A program made the position numbers and the translations under genes. From assembly GCA_021783515.1 (NCBI GenBank), contig JAJXTV010000035.1, positions 1 through 34,235 of the forward strand: a DNA stretch of 34,235 nucleotides. Reading direction: 5' to 3'. Of this stretch, positions 3,863 to 33,111 are shown piece by piece. This DNA is from Nitrospirota bacterium. GTDB taxonomy: Bacteria > Nitrospirota > Thermodesulfovibrionia > Thermodesulfovibrionales > UBA6898. The notes under the pieces are model-generated. The model was given only the letters and a program-made list of their open reading frames with translations, was not told the DNA's origin and did not search any database. The stretch's first letter is position 1, and every line of letters begins with the position of its first letter.

Positions 3863-3884
3863 ATAAACGCGCGCTTCAGCGCGC
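3863..3884 (-). terminator. Possible terminator at the end of the chemosensory operon
   Basis: GCGCGC (3884-3879 on the minus strand), loop TGAA, GCGCGC (3874-3869), then GTTTAT. The last cheY stop codon lies in the loop. The stem is strong but the T-run is short, so termination may be partial. The rest of 3777-3868 shows nothing else. Confidence 0.4.
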
Positions 3885-4244
3885 CAGATAGGTATTAACG
3901 AGCTTGATCAGTTCCTGGGTCTGGATCGGCTTGGGGAGATAGGCGTTCGCCCCGATCGAAAGCGCCCTTTTCCTGTCTTCCTCCGCCCCCTCGGTCGTCA
4001 CGATGATGACCGGGATGGCCTTGTAGGCGGGGTTGCCCCTCACGAGGCTCACGAGTTTGAGGCCGTCCATGACCGGCATATTAATGTCCGCCAGTATGAG
4101 ATCGATCTTCTCGGAGGAAAGTTTCTTCAGCGCGTCCACCCCGTCGGTCGCCTCTATCACATGGGAATTCGGTATCCTCTTGATCGCGAAACTGATAAGC
4201 TGCCTCATTGTCGGAGAATCTTCAACAACGAGTATGTTGGGCAT
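3876..4244 (-). CDS. cheY: CheY-like single-domain response regulator (operon end)
   Basis: A 122-residue single receiver domain that should accept phosphate from CheA. E8/D9 form the acidic pocket, D53 (ADINMP) is the phosphorylation site, T83/T84 the switch Ser/Thr and K105 the conserved lysine. It is last in the chemosensory operon, 14 bp after the coiled-coil GAF gene. It resembles the other CheY of the operon (17988-18356) but differs at many positions, so the two probably divide roles, for example one output regulator and one phosphate sink (inference). Confidence 0.9.
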   Translation of the reverse strand: MPNILVVEDSPTMRQLISFAIKRIPNSHVIEATDGVDALKKLSSEKIDLILADINMPVMDGLKLVSLVRGNPAYKAIPVIIVTTEGAEEDRKRALSIGANAYLPKPIQTQELIKLVNTYLAR

Positions 4245-4258
4245 AGCGCTGTCTCCCC

Positions 4259-5080
4259 TTATTTCCTCGGCTTCTCTTTGAGAAGGTCGAGGAAACTCTG
4301 TATAGTAGTAAGCTTCCGTTCCGACTGCGTGTAGAGCCTCGACGAAAATATCGCCGTCGCCGCGTGGCCCGCAAGCAGATTGAAGAGCTCGTAGTCGACG
4401 TTCGTAAAGCCATCCTTCTGCGTCAGGAGCTTGTAGATCGAGATGACGCCGATGACGTGCTCCTTGATCTTCAGCGGGATGCAGACGATCGGCTCGAGCG
4501 GATTCAACTCCCCCATTCCGGCCAGATCCTCGGAAAAGAAACTTTCTCCCTCCTTTGCAACGGACCCGATCCTTCCCTGACCTATCTTCACCTTCGGAGC
4601 GTCGGAGACCGCCATCCCCTCGGCGCTCACCGGCACCATCTCGTTCGTCTTTTCGTCGATCAGCAGGATCGCAAACTTCTCGGCGCCGATGAGGTTGATG
4701 ATGATCTCGAGCACGATCCTGAGGACCTCGGAAAAATCGAGCGTGGAATGAAGCTGATAACTGGCGACATAGAGGTTGGCAAGGTTGTTGTTTTCCTCTT
4801 CGACCTCGATATACTTGGAGGCGAAGTCCTTGTTCTCCTCTTCGACCTGGCGGAACCGCTCCTTGAGGGAGTTCAGCTCCTCTTCCATCAGGGCGATGCG
4901 GTCTTCGTAGACCTTGATCCTCGCCTCGTCGCCCGAGCGCTGGATCGATTCCTCCATCTGGGCGATCCGGTACCGCAGCTTCTCATTCTCCTTCAGGAGC
5001 TCTTTTGTGAACTCCTCCCCCTTCTTGAACATCTGGAGGAATTCGTCAGCCTTGCCCACAAAGCCGGTCTCTTTTTCCAC
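4259..5080 (-). CDS. Coiled-coil GAF domain protein
   Basis: A 273-residue cytoplasmic protein. Residues 15-105 are a long charged heptad-type coiled coil (KELLKENEKLRYRIAQMEES and following). About 110-255 form a GAF domain that begins YVASYQLHSTLDFSEVLRIV and has the usual core LIGAEKFAILLID and PLKIKEHVIGVISIY. No kinase, cyclase or methyltransferase domain is attached. The gene starts with GTG sharing one base with the cheB stop codon (TAGTG), with AGGGAG upstream, so it is translated together with cheB. It may sense a small molecule or redox state and pass this to the receptor array or to CheY. The ligand cannot be told from sequence. Confidence 0.85.
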   Translation of the reverse strand: MEKETGFVGKADEFLQMFKKGEEFTKELLKENEKLRYRIAQMEESIQRSGDEARIKVYEDRIALMEEELNSLKERFRQVEEENKDFASKYIEVEEENNNLANLYVASYQLHSTLDFSEVLRIVLEIIINLIGAEKFAILLIDEKTNEMVPVSAEGMAVSDAPKVKIGQGRIGSVAKEGESFFSEDLAGMGELNPLEPIVCIPLKIKEHVIGVISIYKLLTQKDGFTNVDYELFNLLAGHAATAIFSSRLYTQSERKLTTIQSFLDLLKEKPRK

Positions 5081-6150
5081 TAACGCTTCTCCCTGTTCAC
5101 CGAGTAGCTTACTACCCGAATTATTTCAGCCGGGATATCCGATATCGGCAACACGCTCTCGACCGCCCCCGCCTTTATCGCCTCCGCAGGCATACCGAAA
5201 ACCACCGCGCTCTCTTCCGACTCTGCTATAGTATACCCGCCTTGTCCTTTTATTTCCACCATTCCGTGGGCGCCGTCGTTGCCCATTCCGGTCAGCAGCA
5301 CGCCCATCGCGTTCGCTCCGAACATCTCGGCGGCAGACTTCATCATATGATCGACCGAAGGCACGTATTTGTCGGTGAGACTCCCTTCTTTCAGCGTCAC
5401 CGCGGTCCTGGCCCCCTTGCGCCTCAGGCCCAGATGATACCCGCCGGGACAGATGAGGACGGTGCCCGGCTCGACAGGATCGTTGTCGGCGGCCTCTTTG
5501 ATCCGGATCTGCGCAAGCTTGTTGAGCCGCTCGGAAAGGGGACCGGTGAACCCCCTCGGCATATGCTGGCTCACGATGATCCCGGCGGGGAAGTCGGCGG
5601 GAAGCCTTGTCAGAATGATCTGGAGCGCCGCCGGCCCTCCGGTCGACGAGCCGACCGCCACCACCTGCACCGATTCCTGCCCGGATTCTCCCGCCGGCTC
5701 GAAAGCCTCTTCCCTTTCGAGATCGAGCAACTCGAGGTTCTTGCTGAGAATATCGAGCCTGATCTCCTTGATGCCCCTTATCTTCCGCAGCAGGTCTTTT
5801 TCGATGCTCTGCAGTTCGAGCGAGGCCCGTTTCGTCGGTTTTGCGATAAAGTCCACCGCGCCGAGTTCGAGCGCCTTGAAGACGGTCTTCGAGTCGTGGT
5901 GAGAGCTGACCATGATGACCGGGGTCGGCCGCTCCCGCATAAGCCAGCGGAGAAAGCTGAACCCGTCCATTTCGGGCATCTCGAAATCGAGGGTGATAAT
6001 GTCGGGCTTCAGCCTCAGGGTTTTCGCCATGGCGTCGATGCCGTCTGCCGCGATGCCGACGACGACCAGACTCGAATCCTGTTCGATAATCTTCTTCATT
6101 AACTGCCTGGTATAGGCAGAATCGTCTACTATCAGTACCTTCGTGCTCAC
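5080..6150 (-). CDS. cheB: CheB protein-glutamate methylesterase/deamidase
   Basis: A 356-residue adaptation enzyme that removes receptor methyl groups and deamidates Gln when phosphorylated by CheA. The N-terminal receiver (1-125) has D10, phospho-acceptor D55 (TLDFEMPEMDG) and K104. A linker of about 35 residues leads to the methylesterase domain (162-350), with the catalytic triad S169 in VGSSTGGP, H196 in QHMPRGF and D292 in GMGNDGA. I start at GTG 6150 because GGGAG lies about 9 nt upstream and the protein then opens STKVLIVDDS, as in the family. A TTG at 6168 would add six residues. It follows cheR by 25 bp. Confidence 0.95.
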   Translation of the reverse strand: MSTKVLIVDDSAYTRQLMKKIIEQDSSLVVVGIAADGIDAMAKTLRLKPDIITLDFEMPEMDGFSFLRWLMRERPTPVIMVSSHHDSKTVFKALELGAVDFIAKPTKRASLELQSIEKDLLRKIRGIKEIRLDILSKNLELLDLEREEAFEPAGESGQESVQVVAVGSSTGGPAALQIILTRLPADFPAGIIVSQHMPRGFTGPLSERLNKLAQIRIKEAADNDPVEPGTVLICPGGYHLGLRRKGARTAVTLKEGSLTDKYVPSVDHMMKSAAEMFGANAMGVLLTGMGNDGAHGMVEIKGQGGYTIAESEESAVVFGMPAEAIKAGAVESVLPISDIPAEIIRVVSYSVNREKR

Positions 6151-6175
6151 GTGATCAACTCCCGGCAATTATGGT

Positions 6176-7051
6176 TTAAGATGAGAATTTCACATTCAGG
6201 CCTTTACCCTCAGGCTTCTGATAGACCATGTCGTTTTTAAAATGCTTCAGGGTAAAGGCGGTAGAAATATTGATCAACGACTCCGCATGGCCGAGGAGCA
6301 GATACCCCCCGTCCACGAGCCTGTCATAAAAATTCCCGATGACCTTCTTTCTGGAAGGGCCGTCGAAATATATTAATACATTTCTGCAAAAGATAACATC
6401 CATTTTCCCGAGAAACCTCGTTTTAAAAGGATCGAGGAGGTTGAGATAGCTGAAGGTGACGTATTTCTTGATGCCGTCGGATATCCGGAACGAGCCGTCT
6501 TCTTCGGTAAAATACTTGGTGACGAAATAGGGGTCCGCCGTCCGGAAGGAGTTCTTGCGGTAGATCCCCTTCCGCGCGGTCTGCAGCACCCTCTGGTTGA
6601 TGTCGCTGCCGTAGATCTCGATGTCCCACCCGGTGAAACTCCCCTTCTCGTTGATAAGCATCGCAAGGGTATAGGGTTCCTCTCCCGTGGAGCAGCCGGC
6701 TGACCAGATCCGCAGGGACCTGCTCTCCCGGTTCTTTTCCCTGAGCTCCTCCAGAATCTCCTCGCTGAAGGCCTTCAGCTGGTTCTGCTCCCGGAAGAAG
6801 TAGGTCTCATTCACCGTAAGGACGTCGATGATCGCGGCGAGTTCGTCCTCGTAGTTCTTGTCGTACCGTATGAAGCGGTAGTAGTCCCTGAAATCGTTGA
6901 GCTGATGGTTCCGTATTCTCCGCGAAAGCCTCTTTTCCAATAGATACTTCGATGCATCATCGAAGTAGAGGCCGCAGTAATCCCGGATGATGTCGCGTAT
7001 GAGCCTGAATACATCCTCTGAAAGAGGAATGATATCTTCTTTTTCAAACAC
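6176..7051 (-). CDS. cheR: CheR chemoreceptor methyltransferase
   Basis: A 291-residue SAM-dependent glutamate O-methyltransferase that methylates chemoreceptors. The N-terminal helical domain (about 10-85) includes GLYFDDASKYLLEKRLSRR. The catalytic part has NETYFFRE, the SAM-binding motif WSAGCSTGEEPYTLAM, GSDIN and the FCRNVLIYF motif. The open frame extends upstream to 7219, but that extension is not CheR-like. GTG at 7051 gives a normal length, has GAGGAG 7 nt upstream and overlaps the end of the HEAT gene by 8 bp, so I chose it. Confidence 0.95.
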   Translation of the reverse strand: MFEKEDIIPLSEDVFRLIRDIIRDYCGLYFDDASKYLLEKRLSRRIRNHQLNDFRDYYRFIRYDKNYEDELAAIIDVLTVNETYFFREQNQLKAFSEEILEELREKNRESRSLRIWSAGCSTGEEPYTLAMLINEKGSFTGWDIEIYGSDINQRVLQTARKGIYRKNSFRTADPYFVTKYFTEEDGSFRISDGIKKYVTFSYLNLLDPFKTRFLGKMDVIFCRNVLIYFDGPSRKKVIGNFYDRLVDGGYLLLGHAESLINISTAFTLKHFKNDMVYQKPEGKGLNVKFSS

Positions 7052-9017
7052 GCAGGATCTCCTCGACGGCCTTTCGTACGGTAGCGTCTTCTTCTGTATC
7101 GAGGAGTCGTTCGAGCTCCTTCCTGGCCTGACCTTCGGCGGTTTTCCCGAGCGTCCTGACCGCCGCGATACGTGTCGCCCAGTCAGGGTCGCGGAGAAAC
7201 GGCACCAGCGTGGTTTCAACCCCGGAGAACCGTGACAGCCCGATGATCGCGGTCCTCCTGATCTCGTCGTCCTCAGACCCGAGCATGCTCAGGATCGCGT
7301 CCCGCGCGTCGTTGCTTTCAATACCGCTCATCGACTCAATCGAGGCGGCGACCACAAAGCCGTTACGGTCCGACAGCAGCCCGGTCAGGGTCTTCACGGC
7401 GCCGGCGTCGCCGAGCACGCCGAGCGCCTTCGCCGCCGCCACCCTCACCGCATCGTCGGGGTCCGAGCTGAGGATCGAGAGCGATTCCAGCACCCCCGGA
7501 CCTCCGATCGCCCCGAGGCTGAGTCCGGCGGATATCCGTATGTCGGGGCTCTCATCGGTCAACGCATAGGAAAGGTACCGCACCGCGTCTTCGCTGCCGA
7601 TCGCCGACAGGGCCGCCACCACCGCCTTTCTCACCCTGACGTTGTCGTCCTTGAGCGCAAAGCCGAGCTCCTCCACCGTCCCGGCGGCCCCGATCTCGCC
7701 CAAAAGGAGGGCGGTATTTCTCCTCATCACCGGGCTTGCGTCCCTGAGAGAAGACGCCGCATCGTCGGGGTCGAGGAAGTCCCTGAGATTTGCGAGCGCC
7801 TCTACGGCTGCCTCCTGGACGTCCTCGTAGGGGTCCGTGAGCAGCCCCCTCAGCTTGGCCATACAGCGCGGGTCCCCCAACAGAGATATGCTGACGGCCG
7901 CGGTCGACCTCACGTGGCCGTCCTCGTTGGCGAGCAGGCGGTCGAGAATATCGTAGTATACCGGCGAGACGACCCCCTGCGTCACCTCGCAGATAAAACG
8001 CAGCTGGTGCGCGTTGTCGGTATCGAAGAGCTTCAACAGGGACTCCGGCTTGTCCCTCCCGATATACACCAGGGCGTTCCTCACGTCCCCCGCGAACTCC
8101 TCTTCATGGGAGATGTCGAGAAGCGGTCCGTACGCAGCCTCGTCCTTCATCAGGCCGAGAAGCAGGATCGCCGAGATCCGCACTTCCCGCTTCGCAGACC
8201 AGGCATGGCCGATCAGCAGTTCCATCGCCTTGTCCCCCAGCAGCCTCCTCATCTCCGCGGTGATCACCTCCGCTCCGACGCCGTTGTGGTAAAACAGCTC
8301 GATCGTCTTGAGCGCCTGCTCCTGAATGTTGCGCGAGGGGTCCGACAGCAGGGGAACGACATGGGCCAGCGTCGATGCGTCAGAGAAGCGGCCGAGGGCC
8401 TTCAGCACCGGCTCCCTCAGGGGTTTGCGCGACAGCGCGGAAAGAAGATGGGGAAGCGCCTTCTTGTTCCCTATCCTCCCCAGGGCGTCTGCCGCGGGAT
8501 AGGCGACCCAGAGATCGCCCCCGTCGAGTATCTCTATGAGCGCGTCGACAACAGAAATCTCTCCCACCTTACCAAGGTGCTCCACCGCCGTGGCGCTGAC
8601 ATTTTCGTCCTCGTCCCTGATCGCCTCGAGCATGAGGGGCAATGACCTGCTGTCCCTCTGCTCCCCGAGGACGTCGATAATGAACTTCCGGACGTCTTTG
8701 TTGGGTGTCCTGAATGCCTCGATGAGATATGGCGTGGCCTTTCGCCCCAGCCGCGTCAACGCCTCTATCGCCGAGTTCCTCGCACCGGCGTTGTCGTCGA
8801 TAAAGAGCATCTGTATCAGGCCGGGGACATACTGTTCGACGCCGTAATCGCCGAACAGGATATCGACGGCGGTCTTCCTGACGCGCCAGCTCGCGTCCTC
8901 CATCGCCTTCAGGAGCAGGGGGATATAGGCCGGGTCCCTGCGTCCCTGAATGCTCTCGACCGCCTCCCTCCGCGTCTCTACGTTACCGTCGCTGATCCGC
9001 TTGCTCAGTTCCCGCAC
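7044..9017 (-). CDS. HEAT-repeat (PBS-lyase-type) scaffold protein
   Basis: A 657-residue protein built almost wholly of about 20 tandem HEAT-like repeats of roughly 31 residues, with recurring patterns such as VRKAVVAALSAIGSEDAVRYL and DDAVRVAAAKALGVLGDAGAV. There is no signal peptide, membrane segment or enzyme motif. Such solenoids act as protein-binding scaffolds. The GTG start at 9017 lies inside the preceding cheW (35-bp overlap) with GGGGAG upstream, and the gene overlaps cheR by 8 bp, so it is embedded between adaptation genes. It may organise the array, CheR/CheB or an output motor (inference). HEAT-repeat proteins are not a core chemotaxis component. Confidence 0.85.
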   Translation of the reverse strand: MRELSKRISDGNVETRREAVESIQGRRDPAYIPLLLKAMEDASWRVRKTAVDILFGDYGVEQYVPGLIQMLFIDDNAGARNSAIEALTRLGRKATPYLIEAFRTPNKDVRKFIIDVLGEQRDSRSLPLMLEAIRDEDENVSATAVEHLGKVGEISVVDALIEILDGGDLWVAYPAADALGRIGNKKALPHLLSALSRKPLREPVLKALGRFSDASTLAHVVPLLSDPSRNIQEQALKTIELFYHNGVGAEVITAEMRRLLGDKAMELLIGHAWSAKREVRISAILLLGLMKDEAAYGPLLDISHEEEFAGDVRNALVYIGRDKPESLLKLFDTDNAHQLRFICEVTQGVVSPVYYDILDRLLANEDGHVRSTAAVSISLLGDPRCMAKLRGLLTDPYEDVQEAAVEALANLRDFLDPDDAASSLRDASPVMRRNTALLLGEIGAAGTVEELGFALKDDNVRVRKAVVAALSAIGSEDAVRYLSYALTDESPDIRISAGLSLGAIGGPGVLESLSILSSDPDDAVRVAAAKALGVLGDAGAVKTLTGLLSDRNGFVVAASIESMSGIESNDARDAILSMLGSEDDEIRRTAIIGLSRFSGVETTLVPFLRDPDWATRIAAVRTLGKTAEGQARKELERLLDTEEDATVRKAVEEILRV

Positions 9018-9474
9018 CGCTCTCCCCTATCAGTTCCATCGATTGCTTCAGCATGATCTTCTCCTCGGAGGTAAGGAGGTTGTCGATATCCAGCAGGATG
9101 ACAATCATGTCGCCCTTCTTCCCCAGACCGGTGAGGTACTCGGTTTTAAACCCTTTGAATATCGACGGCGGACGCATCACTTCCCCTCCGGCAAAAGACA
9201 TGATCTCCCGGATCCCGTCGACGAGGAATCCCAGCTTCTCCTGTCCCGACCGAATGATGATGATCCTTTCCTTTTTCCCGGAAGGCTCTTTCCCGAACCG
9301 CGTCCTGAGGTCGATCAGGGGGATCACCGCGCCCCTGACGCTTATCACTCCCGCCACAAACGCCGGCAGGCCCGGCACCGTAAAAAACTTCTGAGGCTTT
9401 ATGATCTCGACGACGCGCTCGATCGCCACCCCGAATATCTCATCCGCTATATTGAAAACCGCGAACTTCTGCAT
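8983..9474 (-). CDS. cheW: CheW-like coupling protein (short form)
   Basis: A 163-residue protein, essentially one CheW domain (about 2-140) that couples receptors to CheA. Typical features are FNIADEIFGVAIERVVEII, VPGLPAFVAGVISVRGAVIP, LIDLRTRFG, IIIRSGQEKLGFLVDGI and a late LLDIDNLL strand. A short acidic/polar tail follows. The ATG immediately follows the TAA of the second chemoreceptor, so receptor and coupler are likely made in step. The operon has a second, longer CheW at 14462-15205. Confidence 0.93.
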   Translation of the reverse strand: MQKFAVFNIADEIFGVAIERVVEIIKPQKFFTVPGLPAFVAGVISVRGAVIPLIDLRTRFGKEPSGKKERIIIIRSGQEKLGFLVDGIREIMSFAGGEVMRPPSIFKGFKTEYLTGLGKKGDMIVILLDIDNLLTSEEKIMLKQSMELIGESGAGTEQADQRR

Positions 9475-11496
9475 TTATTTTACCTTGAAGACCTCCATCT
9501 CCTTTTTCAGCACCTCGATCTCCTCGAAGAGCGTCGTAAGGGAATAGGAAACCTCCTCCATGTCCTTCACCGTGGCGGACCCGATGTTGCTGATCTGCTC
9601 CATCGCCTGAATAGTGGAATCGTTCATCCTCTTTTGGTTGCCGACCGCTTCGCTTATCCTCGTGATCCCCTCGTTGGCCATCTCAAGGTTCTTCGAGATC
9701 CCCCTCGTCCCGATCGCCTGCTCCTCCGTGCCGCGCTTGCTGAGGTCGGCGACTTCTCTTACGTCCCCCACGCCGTCGAGGAGATAGCTCAGGGCGTTGT
9801 CCTGCTCGCGCGTCGATTTCGCCACGCTGTGCATCATCTTTCGTATGTCTTCGATCGCGGCGGTAATCTGCCTCAGCCCCAGCGACTGCTCTTCCGTGGC
9901 CCGCTCTATCGCCTTCGTCATCTCGGTCGAGTGCTCCGAGGCGGTCAGGATCTCTTTCAGCGCGTCTCCGACCTTGATCACGAGGCCGTTGCCGTCGTCC
10001 ACCTTGTTCCTCGCCGACTCGATCGACGACACGGCGTCCTTGATGTCGCGCTGAATCGTCTTGACGATGCCGCCTATCTCCCGGGTCGAGCTCGCGGTGC
10101 GCTCCGAGAGTCCCCGGATCTCGTCGGCCACGACCGAAAAACTCTTGCCGTATTCGCCCGCCTGCGCCGCGAGGATCGCCGCATTCAGGCTGAGCAGGTT
10201 CGTCTGCTCGGTCACGTCCTTGATGACGGACAGCACCTTCTCGATGTCCGACGAGCGGGCGCCGAGCCTCTGGACGATCTCGGAGGACCTCTTCACTTCA
10301 ACTGAGATATTGTCCATCCCCTCGACCGCATTGACGATCGAAAGCATGCCGACATCCGAGGTGATCTCATTGACCCTGCCGGCCATCTTTGACGATTCCC
10401 TGGCGTGCTCTTCCACCTCCCGGATGGAGGCGCCTATTTCCTCGACCGAGGCCGATGTGTCCTCCACCGCCGACAGCGCCTCGCCTGAATTTTTCGAAAT
10501 CGCCTTCGCCGTATGAGTCATCTGGGCCACCACCGAATAGGAATCTTCCGTGGCCTTGAAGAGCCTCTGGTTGTTCGAGGCGATCTCCTCCGCCGTGGCC
10601 TTCAGCTCGATCAGCGAAGAGACGTTTTCCGTCGACAGGCTCGCCAGCCGCTCGGCCCCGTCGCTTATCTCGGACTGCGCCTTATTGGCATGATGGATGG
10701 ATTTCATGATCTCCTTTACCGCATTGCCCTGCCGCTGAGAACCGGCGATCACATTCTTGTATGTCACGTCGACCTGCTTGATCGCCATCGAGACGTTCAC
10801 GGCCGTCGAGTTGAGCCTCGAAACGGTGAGGGAGAGCCGCTCGGCGAGAAATGCGATCCCCTTTGAGATGCTCCCGATCTCGTTTTCTCCGAGGTCCGGC
10901 ACATGGGTGGAAAGGTCGCCGAGCGTGATCTTTTCAACCGCGCGGTTGATTTCCGACACCGGCCTTTTGATATTGCGGTTGAAAAGGACCATCATGATCA
11001 CGCCGACGGAAAACAGCAAGATCAGCTGATAGAGAGAAATCGTCACGATATTTTCGAAAAGGGCGTTGTTGATCGACTTCGTCGAGTAATCGATCAAGAC
11101 CTCGCCGATCTTGGTGCCGGAGGAGACGATCGCCGTCCGGGAAGAAAGGCTCCGTGTGTAGAACGTGGCGAGAGAGGAGTTTTCCGAGTCCGCCGCTTTG
11201 GCTCGCTCGTTCACTATCTTTCCTTCTCTGCCGAGGATATGCACCGACGTGATATCGTCATCCTTCATGATCTCCTCGAGATAGGTATCCAGAACCGTGT
11301 AGTCGAAGTTCATGAGGGGGGCGACGCTCACGCCCGCGGCGATGGAACCCTCTCTCTTGATCCTGACTTCGAGGGAATCCAGCAGTGAGGCGCGTGTATA
11401 GAAGATCTGAATCACCGCGCCTATCGCCTGCCCTATCAAGAGGATTGCGAACAGCGCAGCCAGGAACTTTGCGGTGATGGATTTCCGAAATATCAT
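9475..11496 (-). CDS. Methyl-accepting chemotaxis protein (second receptor)
   Basis: A 673-residue transmembrane chemoreceptor. TM1 is about 11-31, a compact periplasmic sensor about 32-148 (resembling a PAS-like dCache/sCache fold but without a recognisable ligand motif), TM2 about 150-172, HAMP about 173-225, then a long signalling coiled coil. The hairpin tip at about 428-465 contains [20 protein letters not shown] and [15 protein letters not shown]. The common tip is LNAAIEAARAGE; here the Glu after NAAI is Leu and the Arg is Gln. I start at ATG 11496: the more upstream GTG 11571 has no ribosome site and adds a hydrophilic stretch, while 11496 is linked by ATGA to a 15-codon ORF that has a strong ribosome site. 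Confidence 0.93.
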   Translation of the reverse strand: MIFRKSITAKFLAALFAILLIGQAIGAVIQIFYTRASLLDSLEVRIKREGSIAAGVSVAPLMNFDYTVLDTYLEEIMKDDDITSVHILGREGKIVNERAKAADSENSSLATFYTRSLSSRTAIVSSGTKIGEVLIDYSTKSINNALFENIVTISLYQLILLFSVGVIMMVLFNRNIKRPVSEINRAVEKITLGDLSTHVPDLGENEIGSISKGIAFLAERLSLTVSRLNSTAVNVSMAIKQVDVTYKNVIAGSQRQGNAVKEIMKSIHHANKAQSEISDGAERLASLSTENVSSLIELKATAEEIASNNQRLFKATEDSYSVVAQMTHTAKAISKNSGEALSAVEDTSASVEEIGASIREVEEHARESSKMAGRVNEITSDVGMLSIVNAVEGMDNISVEVKRSSEIVQRLGARSSDIEKVLSVIKDVTEQTNLLSLNAAILAAQAGEYGKSFSVVADEIRGLSERTASSTREIGGIVKTIQRDIKDAVSSIESARNKVDDGNGLVIKVGDALKEILTASEHSTEMTKAIERATEEQSLGLRQITAAIEDIRKMMHSVAKSTREQDNALSYLLDGVGDVREVADLSKRGTEEQAIGTRGISKNLEMANEGITRISEAVGNQKRMNDSTIQAMEQISNIGSATVKDMEEVSYSLTTLFEEIEVLKKEMEVFKVK

Positions 11497-11540
11497 CTGA
11501 CCGGCACCGCCCGGACCGTTGTCGTCTTTATTCCTGCCAT
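11493..11540 (-). CDS. Possible 15-codon translational leader ORF
   Basis: ATG at 11540 opens 15 codons (MAGIKTTTVRAVPVR) ending in TGA at 11493. A near-perfect ribosome site, AAGGAGGGG, lies just upstream. The stop overlaps the ATG of the receptor gene as ATGA. The receptor ATG itself lacks a good ribosome site, which fits translation by coupling. It could instead be chance, with the receptor starting at the in-frame GTG 11571. Confidence 0.4.
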   Translation of the reverse strand: MAGIKTTTVRAVPVR

Positions 11541-11599
11541 AGCCCCTCCTTCTGTCTTCCTGCTCCGGCACGCAGCCGTCGTGGTCGCCAGGGTCGTCA

Positions 11600-14452
11600 T
11601 CAGATCAGCCCTATCTTCGACATCATGACCCTGACGTTGTCATAATCCTCATCGGCCGCCTCGAGGAAGCCGGTATAACTCTCGTTGATCGACTTCAGGA
11701 TCGCCGCGCCCTCGGGTGTGGCGTCGCTGACCCCTGCCAGGGCGTTCTTCAGTTCAGTAACGATCTGCGCATCGATCTCCTTCGAGACACAGATATTGAA
11801 CTCGGGGATGTCCTCGGAAAACTTTATCAGTTTCAGCCCCGAGTCCTTGAGTTTCTGCGCCGTCGACTCCATAATGCCGCCGGCGTCGAAATCTCCGGCC
11901 AGGATCGCCCTCGCAACGTCATCGTGATGACCGAGGTAGTTGTAATAGGCGAGGTCCTTGATGTCGATGCCGGCCTCAAGCAGCATCGCCCGGGGGACGA
12001 TATGACTCGACGTCGAATGAGGGTCCCCAAAGGCGAAGGAATGCCCCCTGATGTCTTCCACCTCATTGATCGGCCCGTCGCTTTTCGCCACGATAACGGC
12101 GTGCTGAAAGGGCTTCCCCTGCCGCAGGGCCTTGACGAGCACCCTGACGCCGTACTTCTTGTGCGCCTCGATATAGGTCGACGGCGTCATGAAGCAGAAT
12201 TGCGTAACGCCCTGCCCGATATCGCCGACCGCTCCCTGAAAGTCGACCGCGACCTTCAGATCGATCTTCTTCTTCAGCTTCCTCCCGAGATACTCGGCGA
12301 GAGGCGTGAATTTCTTGAACATCACGGCGGGAGACTCAAGCGGGACGATCCCCAGCCTGAGGAGGCCCGAGGACCCATCCTCCGAGAACTTGAACTTTTC
12401 CATCTCGAGCACGGTAAGTTCGGCGTCCTTGAGCAGGTCCTTCACCATCTGGTCGAGCTTGAAGGCGCGGTCCCTGTTCTCCCTGGGAAGGTCCTTGATC
12501 TTCTCGATTGCGTTCCATATCTGGCTCGAGCCTATCTTCTGCTCGTTGATCGCGCGCGAAATCTGCTGGCTCTTGTCCGACACGAGTTCCACCGCCTGGG
12601 AAATCTGCTTGCTGTTGAGCGACTGCTCATTCGTGGCGGTTTTCACATGCGTTGACACGTCCCTGATCTTCTCCGTCGCCTTCATGATCAGCTGGATGCC
12701 CCTGTTCTGCTCGGTCGTCGCCTTTGCGATCTGGCCGACCATGCTCAGGACCCGCTCCATCGCCGAGGAGACGAGGTTCGTGGCCTTCGCCTGTTCCGTC
12801 GTCGAATGCTCGATCGCGGCGGCCATCTCGGACGACCGCTTCGAGCTTTCTATGATCTTTCTGAGCGCGTCGGCGGCCTCGTTCGTGACCTTGAAGCCGG
12901 TCTCGACCGAGGTGAGCCCCTCGCCCATCGCGGTCACTGCGTCGCCGACCTCCTGCTGGACCGACTGGATCAGCACGGCGATCTCCTGGGTCGACGCGGA
13001 AGTCCTGTCCGCGAGGTCCTTTATTTCATCGGCCACGACCGAGAAGCCTTTCCCATGTTCCCCCGCTTGAGCGGCCAGAATAGCGGCGTTCAGGGCGAGC
13101 ATCGTCGTCTGGTCGGTGATCTCGTCGATCACGTTCAGTATCTTGCCGATCTCCTCCGACCTGCCGCCCAGGATCTTGATGTAATTCGCCGTCTTTTCAA
13201 CCGAGGACTTGATGTCCCTCATCCCCTGGATCGTCTTTTCGACCGAGATCATCCCGAAGGTGACCGCATCTTTCTTCACCTTGTCTGAGAGCATCGCCGA
13301 ATCCTTGGCGCGCTGCTCCACCTCCTTCACGGACGTCGAAATCTGGAGGATCGCCGACTGGGTGTCTTCCGCGGCCGTCGCGAGTTCGCTCGCGTTGGAC
13401 GCGACCTCCTTGATCGTCGCCGACAACTCCTCGATCGATGCCGAGGTGGACTCCACCGCGACCGACATGTCCTGTGTGCTGCCGGTGATCTGGGCGATGC
13501 TCGTCACCATCTCCTCCATCGAGGCCGCCGTCTCCTCCGCCGAAGCGGCAAGACCGTCGGTGCCGTCCGCGATCTCCGATATCACGGCGTTCAGTTCCTC
13601 GATCGACGAAGAGATGTTGCTGATCGCCTCGGTCTCGACCATGGTTCCCTCGACGACCTTCTTCGCCTCCCGTTCGACGTCCACGGCAACCCTCGTCACC
13701 CGCTTCGAGCCCTCTTTGATCCGCTGAAGGATCCCGGACATCGAAAGGAGCGAGTCGCGGATCGCGCCGGTAAACCTGCCGATCTCGTCGGAACTCCTAA
13801 CCTCAACCCTGAAGGACATATCTCCTTCCGAGAGCTTCGTCGCCGCGTCTTCGAGAGACTTCACCGGCACGATCACCATGCGGCGTATCATCATCCAGAG
13901 GATGAAGCTGAAGGCAAAGCAGGCGAGGATGGTCGCCAGGATCACGATGAGGATCAGCCTCTTGGCGTTGTCGTATTCCTTCGCGATCGAGATCGACGTC
14001 TTCACCGCGCCGAGCACCGCGGGATCGTTGGCGTGGCAGGTACGGCAGCGCTCGGTGTTTTCGAGCGGCTTGTAAAACGTGATCTGGGTGACACCCTGCA
14101 CCCTCTTGGGGGCCTTCGTCTGCGCGATCTCCCTCATTATCTCCGCCTCGGTCGGGGGCGAGCTCTTGTCAAAGGCCTGCCTTCCCTCGTAATTCAGCAG
14201 GGCGACCTCTTCCGCACCGCTTGCACCCTTCAATTCCGCCAGCAGCGACTTCGCAAGGTCGGCGCGCCCTTCGAGCATCGTCCGCTCCACGTCCTTTGCG
14301 ATGACCTTCGCGGTCGCCTCTGAGCTGGCCGCGGTAAGGCTGTAGAGACTCCTCTTTTCGATCGTCAGGACCATGAAACCCGCGGCGACGATACCGATCA
14401 GCAGCAGCACCACCACAAGTGCAAGAATTTTCAGCTCAAGTTTTTCGCGCAT
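11600..14452 (-). CDS. Chemoreceptor with periplasmic c-type heme motif and C-terminal PhnD-like binding domain
   Basis: A 950-residue receptor with an unusual layout. TM1 is about 8-30. The periplasmic sensor (31-165) carries the heme c attachment motif CRTCH at 136-140. TM2 is about 166-189 and HAMP 190-245. The signalling coiled coil (about 250-680) has its tip at 445-485 ([20 protein letters not shown]). Residues 695-950 form a PhnD-type periplasmic-binding-protein fold: [14 protein letters not shown], then [28 protein letters not shown] near 807-823 and FDAGGIMES. PhnD proteins normally bind phosphonate, phosphite or similar anions outside the cell. Here the domain follows the cytoplasmic signalling region, so it should face the cytoplasm. 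The gene starts at ATG with AAGGAGG overlapping the cheW stop. The sequence supports dual input (heme plus cytosolic ligand), but the ligand is unknown. Confidence 0.92.
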
Positions 14453-14461
14453 TCGTCCTCC

Positions 14462-15205
14462 TTATGTGAGCTCCACGTCCAGAGCGTCATAAGACCTGAT
14501 AATCGATATGAAGCGTTTTTCCCGTATTACCACGCCCTCGATAAACCTCAGTGCGTCCTCCGAAAGATGTCCCGGCGGATCGAGGACCATGCCTTCCTCG
14601 AACCTGACCACGCCCAAGACCCTGTGGATCGTGGCGCCGATCATGCCCTTGGGTCCGGACATGATCAGTATCTTCCCGTCCGCCTCCTTCGTCTGCGCTT
14701 CCGGTCCCGCGTCTTTCAGCCCAAGTCTCTTTCGCAGGTCGAGCACCGGTATGATCTTGCCGCGCAGCGACGTGATGCCCATCATGTAGTCCGGCATCGT
14801 CGGCACCTTCGTGATTCTCTGATGCCGTATGATCTCCTCCACCTCCGGTACCCTGAACGCGAATTCCTCGTTCGCGATGCTGAAAGTCAGGAGTTCGAGT
14901 ACGGCTCCGTCCTCGTCGGTTTCCGTCTCTCCCGAAAATCCCCGCTCACCCTGCTTGTCCACCGCGGGAGGAGGCGGAGGCGCTTCGCCCCCGCCGGGTG
15001 TCCCCTCCTTTTCTCCTTCGTACGGCTCCTCTCCGCCGGCGGACACGGCCTGCTCCTCCGGCCCTTCCTCCTTCTCCGCTTTCTCCCGCGCGGGAGAGGG
15101 GACGTTGGCGTCGGCGGGCGCTTCCCCGCGCGGAGGTCTGTCCTGCGAAGCCCTGTCGGCCTCCTCCTTTTCCTTCGCCTTTTTCCTAATTTTCGCGATA
15201 TCCAT
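14462..15205 (-). CDS. cheW: CheW-like coupling protein with long acidic/proline-rich N-terminus
   Basis: A 247-residue protein. Residues 1-103 are charged and low-complexity (Lys/Glu, then Gly/Pro with a run of five prolines) and likely disordered. About 104-247 is a CheW domain (LLTFSIANEEFAFRVPEVEE, MMGITSLRGKIIPVLDLRKR, GVVIREKRFISIIRSYDAL). It couples receptors to CheA. The long tail is unusual for CheW and could tether another partner, such as the AAA ATPase encoded just upstream. The ATG lies 20 bp inside the end of that ATPase gene, so the two are translated together. Confidence 0.92.
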   Translation of the reverse strand: MDIAKIRKKAKEKEEADRASQDRPPRGEAPADANVPSPAREKAEKEEGPEEQAVSAGGEEPYEGEKEGTPGGGEAPPPPPAVDKQGERGFSGETETDEDGAVLELLTFSIANEEFAFRVPEVEEIIRHQRITKVPTMPDYMMGITSLRGKIIPVLDLRKRLGLKDAGPEAQTKEADGKILIMSGPKGMIGATIHRVLGVVRFEEGMVLDPPGHLSEDALRFIEGVVIREKRFISIIRSYDALDVELT

Positions 15206-16004
15206 TAAGCCCGAGTTCCCTCACCGCGTCTTCGATCAGCGGCTCATCGATATAGGTAACCTCCCTCGAAAATCCGTCAAGGAGCGCAGAGGTGGCGATG
15301 CTGTTGATCACCCGCGGGACCCCTCCCGAATAACGGTGCAGGGCGGCCAGCGCCGAGTCGGTAAAAAGGACCTCTTCCCGCCCCGATGTCTTCAGTCTGA
15401 ACGCGACGTAGCCGCCGATCTCGGCCTGGGATATCGGGCCGAGGTGATAGAAAAGACCGATGCGCTGCCTGAGCGGCAGATAGGTCTTGTGGGCCAGGCG
15501 CCTCCTGAGATCGGTTTGTCCGACCAGCACGACGCTCAGGAGGTTCGTATAGTCGAGCTGGAAGTTGGTCAGCAGCCGGATCTCCTCGAATGTGTCTCTC
15601 GCAGGAATAAGCTGGGCCTCGTCGATGATGATGACATTGGTCAGCCCTGATTCGTGGTCGTGATACACCTTTTCATAGATCGCGTCCAGGAGATCGGCCT
15701 TGTACGCCGACGGGATGCTGATGTCCATCCGTTTCGCAATCGTCCGCAGGAACTGGGCCGGACTCAGCACGGGATTGATGATCGTGATCACCCGGCAGCG
15801 CTCGCCCAAAACGTCCATCAGCGCCCTCGTCAGCGTCGTCTTCCCGCAGCCCACCTCCCCGGTAAGCAGGATCATCTCCTTCTCCTCGACCGCGTACTGC
15901 AGCCTCGCAAGGGCCTCTTCGTGGCTCCGGCTGAGGAACAGGAATTTCGGGTCAGGCGTCTTGCTGAACGGTTTCGCGGTCAACCCGTAGAAATCCTCAA
16001 ACAT
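15186..16004 (-). CDS. ExeA/MshM-type AAA ATPase
   Basis: A 272-residue AAA ATPase of the ExeA/GspA/MshM group. It begins MFEDFYGLTAKPFSKTPDP, the hallmark N-terminus of that group. Walker A is GEVGCGKTT (49-57) and Walker B is NVIIIDEAQ (123-131). LSVVLVGQTDLRRRL follows as sensor 1, and a C-terminal lid includes RYSGGVPRVINSIA. Relatives help assemble secretin or pilus systems or position complexes in the envelope. There is no peptidoglycan-binding extension. The gene overlaps cheA by 8 bp and cheW by 20 bp, with AGGAG upstream of its ATG, so it belongs to the chemosensory module. A role in placing the array or driving pili is an inference. Confidence 0.9.
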   Translation of the reverse strand: MFEDFYGLTAKPFSKTPDPKFLFLSRSHEEALARLQYAVEEKEMILLTGEVGCGKTTLTRALMDVLGERCRVITIINPVLSPAQFLRTIAKRMDISIPSAYKADLLDAIYEKVYHDHESGLTNVIIIDEAQLIPARDTFEEIRLLTNFQLDYTNLLSVVLVGQTDLRRRLAHKTYLPLRQRIGLFYHLGPISQAEIGGYVAFRLKTSGREEVLFTDSALAALHRYSGGVPRVINSIATSALLDGFSREVTYIDEPLIEDAVRELGLNGYREN

Positions 16005-17991
16005 GTGCGGCTCCTCTCTGTTTGATGATCGATTCGTCGATGAGGGATTCGATATCGAGGACGAGTATCACCTCGTGCTTGCCGATCTCGGCGGCGCCGG
16101 CGAACCCCCGCAGTTTTTTCAGATATTCGCTGAGAGACTTGATCACGATCTCCTGCTGCCCGTAGAGTTCGTCGACGAGCAGTCCGACCTTTCTCTCCCC
16201 GAAACCGACGACGACGGCAAACGACCGGTCGCTCTCGCCCTCCGGGAGGGCGAAGAACCTGTTCACCCTGATCATCGGCAGCATCTCGCCCCTCAGGTAG
16301 AACACCTCTTTCCACTCGATCGTCTGGATCTCGCTATGCTCCACGATGAGCGTCTCGGACATCGACGTGAGGGGGACTGCAAACCGCTCCTCTCCCACCC
16401 TCACCACAAGCGCCTTGATGATCGCAAGCGTAATCGGCAGCGTAAGCATGAAGGTGGTCCCGACGTCCTTCTTCGTCTCGATCTCGGCAAACCCGCCGAG
16501 CATCGCCAGTTTCTCCTTCACCACGTCCATGCCGACACCCCTGCCGGAGACCTCGCTCACCACGTCCTTCGTGCTGAAACCGGGGGTAAAGATGAAATCG
16601 ATCGTCTCAGCCTCGGTCAGTTCCTCGTCCGCCCGGAGGAGCCCCTTTTCGACCGCCTTCTTCCTCACCTTTCCGATATCGATGCCGCCCCCGTCGTCCT
16701 TCAGCTCGATGACGACATGATTGCCCTTCTGGTAAGCCTTCAGGACGACCGTGCCCGATTCCCGCTTTCCCTTTGCCCTTCTCACGTCGGGCGGCTCGAT
16801 ACCGTGGTCGAGCGAGTTCCTCACCAGGTGCATGAGAGGATCGATGATCTCTTCGGCCAGGTATTTGTCGAGCTCAGTGTCCTCGCCGTACATGACGAGG
16901 TCTATCTGCTTGCCGATCTCCCGCGAATACCGCCTGACCACCTGCGCCAGCCTCGAGAAGATCTGCCCTATGGGGACCATCCTGATCTCGAGGACCTGGT
17001 CCTGGAGCTCCGCGAGCCTTCTTTCAAGCGTCTGGGTGATCTTATGGACGTCGTACACCAGCGAGGTGTGGCCGTGGGTCTCGGTCATCTCCGTCCCGAT
17101 CCTTCGTATTGCCTCCTTGGCGAGGCTCAGTTCCCCGATCGAATTGAGTATCCGGTCGAGCTTCTCGATATCCACCCTCACCGTCGTGGTCGTGCTCTTC
17201 AGATGCGTCTCGGGCTGGGCGCCCGCCTGGGCAGGCTGCGGGGGCGGAGCTGCCGGATGCGCCTCCTCACTCTGGGGTGCAACGAGCAGTTCCACGTCGT
17301 AGGGCAGGTCCTTCTTCACGTCGCCCAAAGATGCCGGGCTGCCAAACAGCAGATTGAAGCCGATCGACCCTTCCGGCACGTCCGTGGAAGTCGGCAGGGT
17401 CGAGATCAGTTCGCCCTTCGTCTTGATCACCTTCGTGAGGTCGGCGAGAGACGTATCGAACGTCTCGAGGGGAAACACCGCCTTCGCGAGATAGATCCCC
17501 TTGCCGGCCTTCACGTTTGCCTTGAGCCGGTGTTCCTCATATTCTGACAGCACCTTCATGATCGACTCGTCGACCCCGTGCCCGCCTGCCTCCGGCTGGC
17601 CGCCGCCTTTCAGGGACTCCCGGAACGATTCGATATCCCCGATAAATGCTGAGGAATCAGTCTCCTCGTCCGTCTGGCTCAGCTTGTCCACGATATCCTT
17701 GAGGATGTCGACGTTTCTGAAGAGAAAGCTGACAACCCTCCCGTCGACCTCGATCTTGCCGAGCCGCACGTCGTCCATGAGCGTTTCGAGGGCATGGCTG
17801 AGATTGGTGATCCCCTGGAGCCCGAAAAGCCCCGAGACGCCCTTGAGGGTATGCATCGCCCTGAAGAGGGCGTTAATCGTATCGGGATTAACTCCCGCCG
17901 AAAAGCTGTCCTGTATCTCGAGGATCAGCCGCTGAGACTCCTCGAGAAGTTCTTCGGCCTCTGCGATAAATTCCTTTTTCGAAGATTTCAT
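15997..17991 (-). CDS. cheA: CheA histidine kinase
   Basis: A 664-residue CheA. The P1 Hpt domain has phospho-acceptor H47 in AMHTLKGVSGLFG. About 140-240 is a middle domain in the P2 position that I do not recognise, followed by a Pro/Ala linker. P3 dimerisation is about 270-350. The P4 kinase has the N box HLVRNSLDHGIE (388-399), G1 DDGGGID (432-438), the F box FIFTPGFSTK and G2 SGRGVGMDVV. P5, the CheW-like regulatory domain, is about 525-660. It receives receptor signals through CheW and phosphorylates CheY and CheB. ATG overlaps the stop of the upstream cheY by ATGA, coupling the pair. No receiver domain is fused, unlike many type IV pilus (ChpA/PilL) CheAs. Confidence 0.96.
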   Translation of the reverse strand: MKSSKKEFIAEAEELLEESQRLILEIQDSFSAGVNPDTINALFRAMHTLKGVSGLFGLQGITNLSHALETLMDDVRLGKIEVDGRVVSFLFRNVDILKDIVDKLSQTDEETDSSAFIGDIESFRESLKGGGQPEAGGHGVDESIMKVLSEYEEHRLKANVKAGKGIYLAKAVFPLETFDTSLADLTKVIKTKGELISTLPTSTDVPEGSIGFNLLFGSPASLGDVKKDLPYDVELLVAPQSEEAHPAAPPPQPAQAGAQPETHLKSTTTTVRVDIEKLDRILNSIGELSLAKEAIRRIGTEMTETHGHTSLVYDVHKITQTLERRLAELQDQVLEIRMVPIGQIFSRLAQVVRRYSREIGKQIDLVMYGEDTELDKYLAEEIIDPLMHLVRNSLDHGIEPPDVRRAKGKRESGTVVLKAYQKGNHVVIELKDDGGGIDIGKVRKKAVEKGLLRADEELTEAETIDFIFTPGFSTKDVVSEVSGRGVGMDVVKEKLAMLGGFAEIETKKDVGTTFMLTLPITLAIIKALVVRVGEERFAVPLTSMSETLIVEHSEIQTIEWKEVFYLRGEMLPMIRVNRFFALPEGESDRSFAVVVGFGERKVGLLVDELYGQQEIVIKSLSEYLKKLRGFAGAAEIGKHEVILVLDIESLIDESIIKQRGAAHV

Positions 17992-18356
17992 GCGCCAATC
18001 GTCTTCTTTATGATTTCCTGCAGTTCGAACGACTTGAAGGGCTTGGTGACGTAAGCCGTCGCACCGAGCGCCATCCCCCTCTTCTTGTCTTCTTCGCTCC
18101 TTTCGGTGCTGACGATTACGATCGGGAGGTGGCTGAACCGCGGGTTGCTCCGTACGAAACTGATCAGTTCGAGCCCGTTGATGTCGGGCATATTGATGTC
18201 GGTGATGATGAGGTCATAGTCCTGCTGCGGGAGCATCTTGAGCGCCTCGAACCCGGAAGACGCCTCGACCGTATCAAACTCGCCGATTTCGTCTATTACC
18301 GCCCTGATGAGCGACCGCGTCGTGGCGGAATCTTCGACAATGAGTATGGTCTTCAT
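17988..18356 (-). CDS. cheY: CheY-like response regulator paired with CheA
   Basis: A 122-residue receiver domain. E8/D9, phospho-acceptor D53 (ITDINMPDING), S83/T84 and K105 are all present. The strong ribosome site GGGGGGAGG lies just before the ATG, and the stop overlaps the cheA start as ATGA, so this is the likely direct partner of CheA. A 141-bp gap separates it from the DUF4388 gene upstream, the longest gap inside the operon, and may hold an internal promoter. Confidence 0.92.
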   Translation of the reverse strand: MKTILIVEDSATTRSLIRAVIDEIGEFDTVEASSGFEALKMLPQQDYDLIITDINMPDINGLELISFVRSNPRFSHLPIVIVSTERSEEDKKRGMALGATAYVTKPFKSFELQEIIKKTIGA

Positions 18357-18497: not shown

Positions 18498-19637
18498 TCA
18501 CCCGCCCTCGCCTCCGTCTTTTTTCGTTTCCATTTCCTGTATCCGCCGCTGCAGCAAGGATTTCTCGAGCGCAAGCCCGGCATGGCTGATGAAGATTTCG
18601 AGTCCTTCTGTCTCGGGGATCGCCTCGCCGGTCGAAAAGTTGTCGCAATAGAGAAAGGCAACCACCCGGCCCTCGGCGACGATAGGAAATATCGTCACCT
18701 CGGTAGGCCATACGCCCCCGAGTTCGTCCATCAGTCTGCGGGTAGTTTCGTCTTTTTCGAGCAGCCCCTTATACGGCCTCTGCTCGCCGACGACCCTTTT
18801 CAGGAACGGGCTTTGTTCCATGTCAAGCACCGTCTCCCGGACCTTCTCATCGGCCCTCTCGATCTCGAGCCCGAACTGGCCGAGGCCGACGACCTCGGTT
18901 TTGCCGACCATGAAGAGAACGCCCCGGTGAAAGATGTCGCTCGCGAACCTCAGAATCAGGAGCGTGATCTCGGAGGCGGAATTCGGGAACCTCAGTTCCT
19001 GGGTCAGCGCCTTCAGCGCGGAAATGTCCTTTCTTTCAACCGCCGGCGTCTCCCAGTCGTCATCCCATCCGCCTCCGCCCTCTTCCGTTTCTTCGGAAGA
19101 CAACTCTTCGGTCGAGATAAACGACGCCTGGGTGGATTCGTCCTGGACCCTGGCGCCTTCCATCAGCAGATACTCCGGGCTCAGCCCCCTCGACAACTCC
19201 CATCCGAGGTCCTCCATCCCGGTCTTTCCTTCCAGATCCAGGTCGTCGAGCTCAAACTGGAAATCGCCGTCCTCCCACATCAGGAGCCGGTAGATCACCC
19301 TCTCGATTCGCTTTTTTGCGGCCTTGTCGAGCACCTCGGCGCTTACCGCGCCGAAGTCGAAAAGTATCTCGGCGACCGACTTCGAGGGCAGCTTTTTTTT
19401 TACCTCCACCGCCATATTCAGCATGGTGTCTTTTACCAGCCCCGCTTCCATCAGGTTTGTCCCGAGCGTGCCTTCGAGGTCGTCGGTCTCTGCCCTGACG
19501 ACCATGCCGTTTTTAAAGACGATGATCGCCGTCCCCTTGGACCCGTTGACAATGAACGTTCCGGTCTTTCGCCCGACGCTGAGGATCTGAAAGATGTCGG
19601 AAATCGCGAGGTCTTCAAGTCTGCCGGCGAGACTCAT
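18498..19637 (-). CDS. DUF4388 (PATAN) protein with GAF-like C-terminus
   Basis: A 379-residue cytoplasmic protein. Residues 1-110 begin SLAGRLEDLAISDIFQILS and continue with KTGTFIVNGSKG and FKNGMVVRAE, the pattern of DUF4388/PATAN domains found with two-component and surface-motility regulators in Deltaproteobacteria and cyanobacteria. A helical part (KKRIERVIYRLLMWEDGDFQF) and an acidic linker follow. About 205-370 resembles a degenerate GAF domain (TIFPIVAEGRVVAFLYCDN). The ATG overlaps the stop of the small GlgC-like ORF by ATGA. It may bind another regulator or act as an output adaptor. The exact role is unknown. Confidence 0.85.
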   Translation of the reverse strand: MSLAGRLEDLAISDIFQILSVGRKTGTFIVNGSKGTAIIVFKNGMVVRAETDDLEGTLGTNLMEAGLVKDTMLNMAVEVKKKLPSKSVAEILFDFGAVSAEVLDKAAKKRIERVIYRLLMWEDGDFQFELDDLDLEGKTGMEDLGWELSRGLSPEYLLMEGARVQDESTQASFISTEELSSEETEEGGGGWDDDWETPAVERKDISALKALTQELRFPNSASEITLLILRFASDIFHRGVLFMVGKTEVVGLGQFGLEIERADEKVRETVLDMEQSPFLKRVVGEQRPYKGLLEKDETTRRLMDELGGVWPTEVTIFPIVAEGRVVAFLYCDNFSTGEAIPETEGLEIFISHAGLALEKSLLQRRIQEMETKKDGGEGG

Positions 19638-33021: not shown

Positions 33022-33111
33022 CAGAAGAACTCTCCTGCGGCACGACCGGAGAAGGGACAGCATTTTCGCACCCCGCGTGTCGCGGACTTCTCAGACGCGC
33101 ACATGTATTAC

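Follow-up and report, generated by a model that had tools for sequence, protein, structure and literature searches.

A chemoreceptor with a C-terminal Phosphonate-bd domain in a conserved che operon

The window, that is, the whole 34,235-nucleotide stretch of contig JAJXTV010000035.1 analysed here, from a Nitrospirota bacterium, carries a che operon that includes a chemoreceptor gene (Table 1). From N- to C-terminus, the 950-aa product comprises a first transmembrane segment (TM1), a periplasmic c-heme sensor, a second transmembrane segment (TM2), a HAMP domain, a long MCP coiled coil and a Phosphonate-bd domain. An earlier note, made from the sequence alone, had described a CRTCH motif in the outer sensor and a PhnD-type fold past the coiled coil, and had proposed a domain search. 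Pfam confirmed both features, with the motif at residues 136-140, and all four matches exceed the curated cut-offs: Mcp40H-20_sensor (PF21563; residues 50-155, 43.6 bits against 27), HAMP, MCPsignal (PF00015; residues 401-569, 4e-44, 150.9 bits against 34.6) and Phosphonate-bd (PF12974; residues 700-937, E 6.5e-60, 202.9 bits against 27, covering the full profile 1-242).

The protein has the hallmarks of an MCP, namely the MCPsignal hairpin with its conserved tip (86% mean identity), membrane anchoring, a HAMP domain and a location in a che operon with CheA, CheW, CheR and CheB. The C-terminal domain, placed after the MCP coil, lacks those of an ABC substrate-binding protein: it has no export signal and no partner permease or ATPase genes, its gene neighbours being che genes and an AAA ATPase. 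The order DUF4388-CheY-CheA-AAA-CheW-receptor-MCP-CheW-HEAT-CheR-CheB-GAF-CheY is largely retained across the phylum. The AAA_22 ATPase (15186-16004, -) shows a below-cut-off likeness to the XrtA-associated ATPase. Elsewhere in the window (27745-33063, -), a single hybrid protein of 1772 aa unites domains of the CheB, CheR, PAS, GAF and histidine kinase types.

Table 1. Features of the receptor gene and of its operon (positions in the window).
Feature	Position	Strand	Basis
Chemoreceptor with C-terminal Phosphonate-bd domain	11600..14452	-	single 950-aa ORF, ATG start
TM1, ~residues 9-31	14360..14428	-	hydropathy; helix in AF2 model
Periplasmic heme-c sensor domain, residues 32-165 (PF21563, GSU0582/GSU0935 type)	13958..14359	-	Pfam, solved-structure matches
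Met59, aligned with distal heme ligand Met60 of GSU0935	14276..14278	-	alignment, PMC8396549
C-R-T-C-H heme-c attachment motif, residues 136-140 (C136, C139, H140)	14033..14047	-	alignment
TM2, residues 166-188	13889..13957	-	hydropathy
HAMP domain, residues 189-240 (Pfam match 189-226)	13733..13888	-	Pfam
Signalling coiled-coil hairpin, residues 241-655, conserved tip 431-500	12488..13732	-	Pfam, alignment, AF2 model
Linker, invariant P656 to residue 694; low-confidence stretch 685-695	12371..12487	-	alignment, AF2 model
C-terminal type II substrate-binding-protein domain (Phosphonate-bd, PtxB-like), residues 695-950	11603..12370	-	Pfam, alignment, AF2 model, fold comparison
S813-T814-S815, oxyanion-binding STS motif (Te_PtxB S130-T131-S132)	12008..12016	-	alignment; PMC5700983
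H843, counterpart of Te_PtxB H160	11924..11926	-	alignment
E862, acidic, invariant 34/34	11867..11869	-	alignment
E884-F885-N886, cap position; PtxB Y208 -> F885	11795..11803	-	alignment
DUF4388 protein, conserved at operon head	18498..19637	-	ortholog operons
CheY-like receiver	17988..18356	-	Pfam
CheA	15997..17991	-	Pfam
AAA_22 ATPase, between CheA and CheW, conserved in operon	15186..16004	-	Pfam
CheW	14462..15205	-	Pfam
Second MCP of operon, HAMP + MCPsignal, no Phosphonate-bd	9475..11571	-	Pfam
CheW-like protein	8983..9474	-	domain scan
HEAT-repeat protein, conserved in operon	7044..9017	-	Pfam, ortholog operons
CheR methyltransferase	6176..7219	-	Pfam
CheB, receiver + methylesterase	5080..6168	-	Pfam
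GAF-domain protein	4259..5080	-	
CheY-like receiver	3876..4244	-	

The fusion is intact and its C-terminal domain is predicted to be cytoplasmic

That a frameshift or misassembly near residue 690 had fused two genes, a possibility raised in the earlier note, can be dismissed with near certainty. The identical junction occurs in dozens of independent assemblies, including the single-contig genomes G012 and G031; the 34 aligned sequences, drawn from many genomes and of similar length, share the same architecture, and the surrounding operon is conserved. A spurious extension is also countered by the AF2 model, with a pLDDT of ~90 over residues 700-950, and by the low dN/dS of the fused domain (0.065-0.107 against the window protein and 0.139 between two neighbours, in five of seven close comparisons, synonymous sites being saturated in the other two). 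The domain is under purifying selection. One ortholog shows the opposite of gene joining: in genome G005 (L036:6978-9851, +), an in-frame stop splits the gene into ORFs of 287 and 664 aa, reflecting either a pseudogene or a sequencing error. The fusion therefore stands.

Hydropathy revealed only two hydrophobic segments in the window protein (~9-31 and ~166-184). Past residue 230, no 19-residue window reached the threshold of 1.6 for a membrane segment, the best mean being 1.06 in the window protein and at most 1.43 in its orthologs. The third membrane segment that the earlier note had weighed against its own topology is thus absent from both. Together with the periplasmic chemistry of c-type heme, the two segments support the note's placement of the C-terminal Phosphonate-bd domain, which is predicted to be cytoplasmic. 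A lone hydrophobic window (1.71 at residue 850, inside the substrate-binding domain) occurs in a 934-aa homologue (L085, 6644-9448, -); its near relatives L084 and L086 lack it, and we judged it spurious.

The outer sensor belongs to a known heme-c family

The outer sensor matches two heme-c sensors of solved structure, 3b47 and 3b42, and is a member of the already known Geobacter family of GSU0582 and GSU0935. H140 aligns with His144 of GSU0935, in which Met60 is the distal heme ligand (PMC8396549), and C136, C139, H140 and M59 are invariant in all 34 aligned sequences, so that the domain is predicted to be loaded with heme. A 2026 preprint groups the Mcp40H-20_sensor of GSU0582/GSU0935 with a sensor type named sCache_heme, which is enriched in Nitrospirota among others and which, in fusions with signalling modules, has properties of an NO sensor (PMC12889525).

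The C-terminal domain is retained while the outer sensor is lost or exchanged

The recurrence survey proposed in the earlier note showed that the architecture, encoded within a syntenic che operon, recurs in over 50 genomes of the phylum, the nearest named records being Nitrospirae MAGs. Most of 60 relatives, single-contig genomes among them, have the full-length protein, with identities ranging from 88% (same genus) to ~50% (other families of the order). Among 71 homologues, 50 combine the heme sensor with the substrate-binding domain, 11 carry a different outer sensor and eight have no outer domain, both groups with the substrate-binding domain; the remaining two are the gene split by a stop and a heme-bearing receptor devoid of the C-terminal domain. 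The sensorless homologues retain HAMP, MCPsignal and Phosphonate-bd. A tree built on the signalling coil (68 rows) implies about five losses and at least three replacements of the outer sensor, against a single loss of the substrate-binding domain. The single receptor without it (L060:8025-10124, +, genome G027) keeps HEAT, CheR and CheB in its operon; a CheW gene adjoins it, and the second MCP is missing too.

Because the sensor has been lost or swapped repeatedly while the substrate-binding domain was kept, the inner domain is, as far as the homologues indicate, the conserved part of the receptor and the heme sensor the exchangeable one. The receptor probably takes its main input through the inner domain. 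The earlier proposal of one receptor pairing heme outside with a ligand domain inside thus holds for the architecture, which is real, but the pairing is inconstant. That a metabolite or anion is read inside is plausible.

MCP/Phosphonate-bd fusions were not found in genomes sampled outside the phylum (398 from the phylum of an Alteromonas, 201 from that of an Anaerolineae MAG and eight from another phylum, Desulfobacterota lying outside the sample), in searches with the substrate-binding domain at thresholds that would miss more divergent fusions. Most matches were shorter than ~400 aa, and of the longer frames the three scanned, L093, L094 and L095, hold no MCP domain (L099 left out). Other arrangements also occur: two tandem Phosphonate-bd domains (L066:4093-5790, L067:2315-3982, L068:3479-5398 and L098:1891-3774, those checked having a hydrophobic segment at the N-terminus), two such domains joined to a DsbD-type membrane domain (L096:1338-3602, -) and a Bmp/PnrA-type binding domain joined to Phosphonate-bd (L094:1682-4087, -).

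A probable oxyanion pocket with a selectivity other than that of PtxB

Structure prediction, also suggested in the earlier note, gave a PtxB/PhnD-like fold with Z scores of 28-31. PtxB is closest (Z 30.7, 5o2j), followed by ArrX and PhnD (Z 28-30), over 246-255 aligned residues (VIA-align). The pTM of the model is 0.38, and the relative placement of its domains was, therefore, not taken as evidence.

The STS motif and histidine of the PtxB phosphite site are present (S813, T814, S815 and H843), whereas its tyrosine cap Y208 and aspartate partner D22 are replaced by F885 and L705; further replacements affect Y55 (F738) and Y100 (Q783, or His). S813, E862, E884 and F885 are buried pocket residues, E884 being invariant in 34 of 34 aligned sequences and F885 conserved in 33. 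STS, H843, E862, E884, F885 and N886 are retained in most of ~70 homologues, including those in which the outer sensor has been swapped or is absent. It looks as if the domain has a working oxyanion pocket with a selectivity other than that of PtxB. Not every homologue retains T814/S815 and H843, and the sensorless L061 has a clearly altered pocket; in some copies, binding may therefore be different or absent.

Two groups of ligands were considered. The nearest solved sequences and folds (PtxB, PhnD and HtxB) and the preserved STS-His motif would suit a sensor of phosphite, phosphonate or phosphate that reports cytoplasmic phosphorus status. We consider this quite unlikely, given the loss of the phosphite cap: the single change Y208F in Te_PtxB weakened phosphite binding by about three orders of magnitude (PMC5700983). 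Moreover, the relatives recovered in the structure comparison include, besides phosphite- and phosphonate-bound structures, sulfate- and arsenate-bound ones (ArrX), and in TtrS-type kinases Phosphonate-bd is proposed to sense tetrathionate/thiosulfate (PMC5408782).

The domain might instead sense a cytoplasmic sulfur oxyanion that belongs to dissimilatory sulfur metabolism, such as sulfite. Sulfite is similar to phosphite in size and shape. Among 254 near-complete genomes of the phylum sample, a dsrA match was present in 57 of 57 with the fusion compared to 66 of 197 without it, an association strongly confounded by phylogeny, much of it being accounted for by shared ancestry. Within the order, the figures were 43 of 43 and 49 of 55 (p 0.03), an effect that amounts to six genomes. 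The complete genome G027, whose ortholog L060 is the only one to have lost the substrate-binding domain, has no dsrA. On the other side, two genomes that did not pass the quality filter, G013 (86% complete) and G127 (74%), have the fusion without a dsrA match, which incompleteness may explain; in G293, a fusion genome, the match falls below the family cut-off; and the pocket offers no argument that favours sulfur specifically. The co-occurrence with dsrA is thus a hint toward a sulfur oxyanion, and this specific form of the oxyanion reading is tentative and, as it stands, rather doubtful.

Position of the inner domain, signalling and output

From the conserved tip (~residue 465) to the end of the coil at the invariant P656, the return arm spans ~190 residues, or ~280 Å of helix at 1.5 Å per residue, and the substrate-binding domain follows on a tether of ~40 residues. 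Therefore, by arithmetic on helix length alone, the domain should lie near the membrane-proximal HAMP base of the coil, away from CheA and CheW. Its location next to CheA/CheW, as formerly proposed, was not borne out.

The domain occupies the site where other receptors carry CheR/CheB tethers, the receptor's own C-terminus has no pentapeptide, and the HEAT protein accompanies the receptor in most complete operons. It could, then, have given up small-molecule sensing and serve, in place of the pentapeptide tether, as a scaffold on which operon proteins (HEAT-repeat, CheR or CheB, for example) dock. We find this unlikely: docking would not call for conserved buried pocket residues such as S813, E862, E884 and F885, and L060 lacks the domain although HEAT, CheR and CheB are encoded with it.

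We favour, with a probability of roughly two in three, a receptor with two inputs, of which the conserved one is an oxyanion in the cytoplasm. Outside, the c-type heme PAS/Cache-like sensor would respond to redox conditions or to a ligand of the heme (NO, for instance), and its signal would pass via TM2 and HAMP. Inside, the substrate-binding domain, tethered to the coil end, would bind a small oxyanion or a phospho- or sulfo-compound, and its closure on the ligand would shift the packing of the adjacent coil/HAMP region and, through it, alter how active CheA is at the far end of the coil. Of the two inputs to the che system, the inner domain would be the more conserved. Both ligand binding and the direction of signalling are inferred.

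As for the output, FliG_C found no match in the window's genome, which is 98.7% complete. Eleven further relatives, at least 90% complete, have the fusion (split by the stop in G005) and lack FliG, and in G005, G012 and G036 the only CheA match lies within the receptor's cluster. A flagellar output is, therefore, unlikely in these genomes, and we infer type IV pili as the likely target. PilT-family ATPases are present in the window's genome; as they occur in every genome searched, PilT was rejected as a marker discriminating the output. A broader scenario, in which a phylum-wide and often flagella-less lineage uses a core receptor with an interchangeable outer sensor to read a cytoplasmic sulfur oxyanion (e.g. 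sulfite) and steer type IV pilus motility by metabolic flux, is speculative, and we would give it little chance of being right in full.

Comparison with known systems

Substrate-binding folds of the Phosphonate-bd family typically lie outside the membrane. A conserved chemoreceptor with such a fold inside the cell would link a cytoplasmic metabolite directly to the chemosensory output. That the heme sensor was lost repeatedly and the inner domain retained amounts to a natural experiment on which input is decisive, and the isolated C-terminal domain is small and directly accessible to ligand tests.

We found no description of an MCP joined to a Phosphonate-bd domain in the literature searched, of which coverage was partial. 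The heme-c sensor and C-terminal sensor domains on chemoreceptors are already known. GSU0582 and GSU0935 of Geobacter sulfurreducens share the periplasmic PAS/Cache-like sensor with CXXCH and a distal Met, the two transmembrane segments, HAMP and MCP, but their published description includes no C-terminal substrate-binding domain. PtxB, PhnD and ArrX (PF12974) have the same fold and STS-His oxyanion motif, yet they are periplasmic transport or sensing proteins, whereas the domain described here is fused to an MCP, is predicted to be cytoplasmic, lacks the PtxB cap residues and has no ABC permease nearby. Histidine kinases of the TtrS/ThsS type also use Phosphonate-bd as a signalling input, albeit N-terminal, periplasmic and with a kinase output. 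Precedents for a second sensory region come from Desulfovibrio vulgaris and Azospirillum. DcrH carries a C-terminal hemerythrin and Tlp1 a C-terminal PilZ (PMC13401364), while DcrA pairs a periplasmic c-heme, as predicted for the window receptor, with a cytoplasmic PAS (PMC8396549); neither hemerythrin nor PAS is a substrate-binding fold. Azospirillum Tlp1/Aer, like the receptor described here, bears a C-terminal cytoplasmic ligand domain, although its PilZ binds c-di-GMP and has an unrelated fold.
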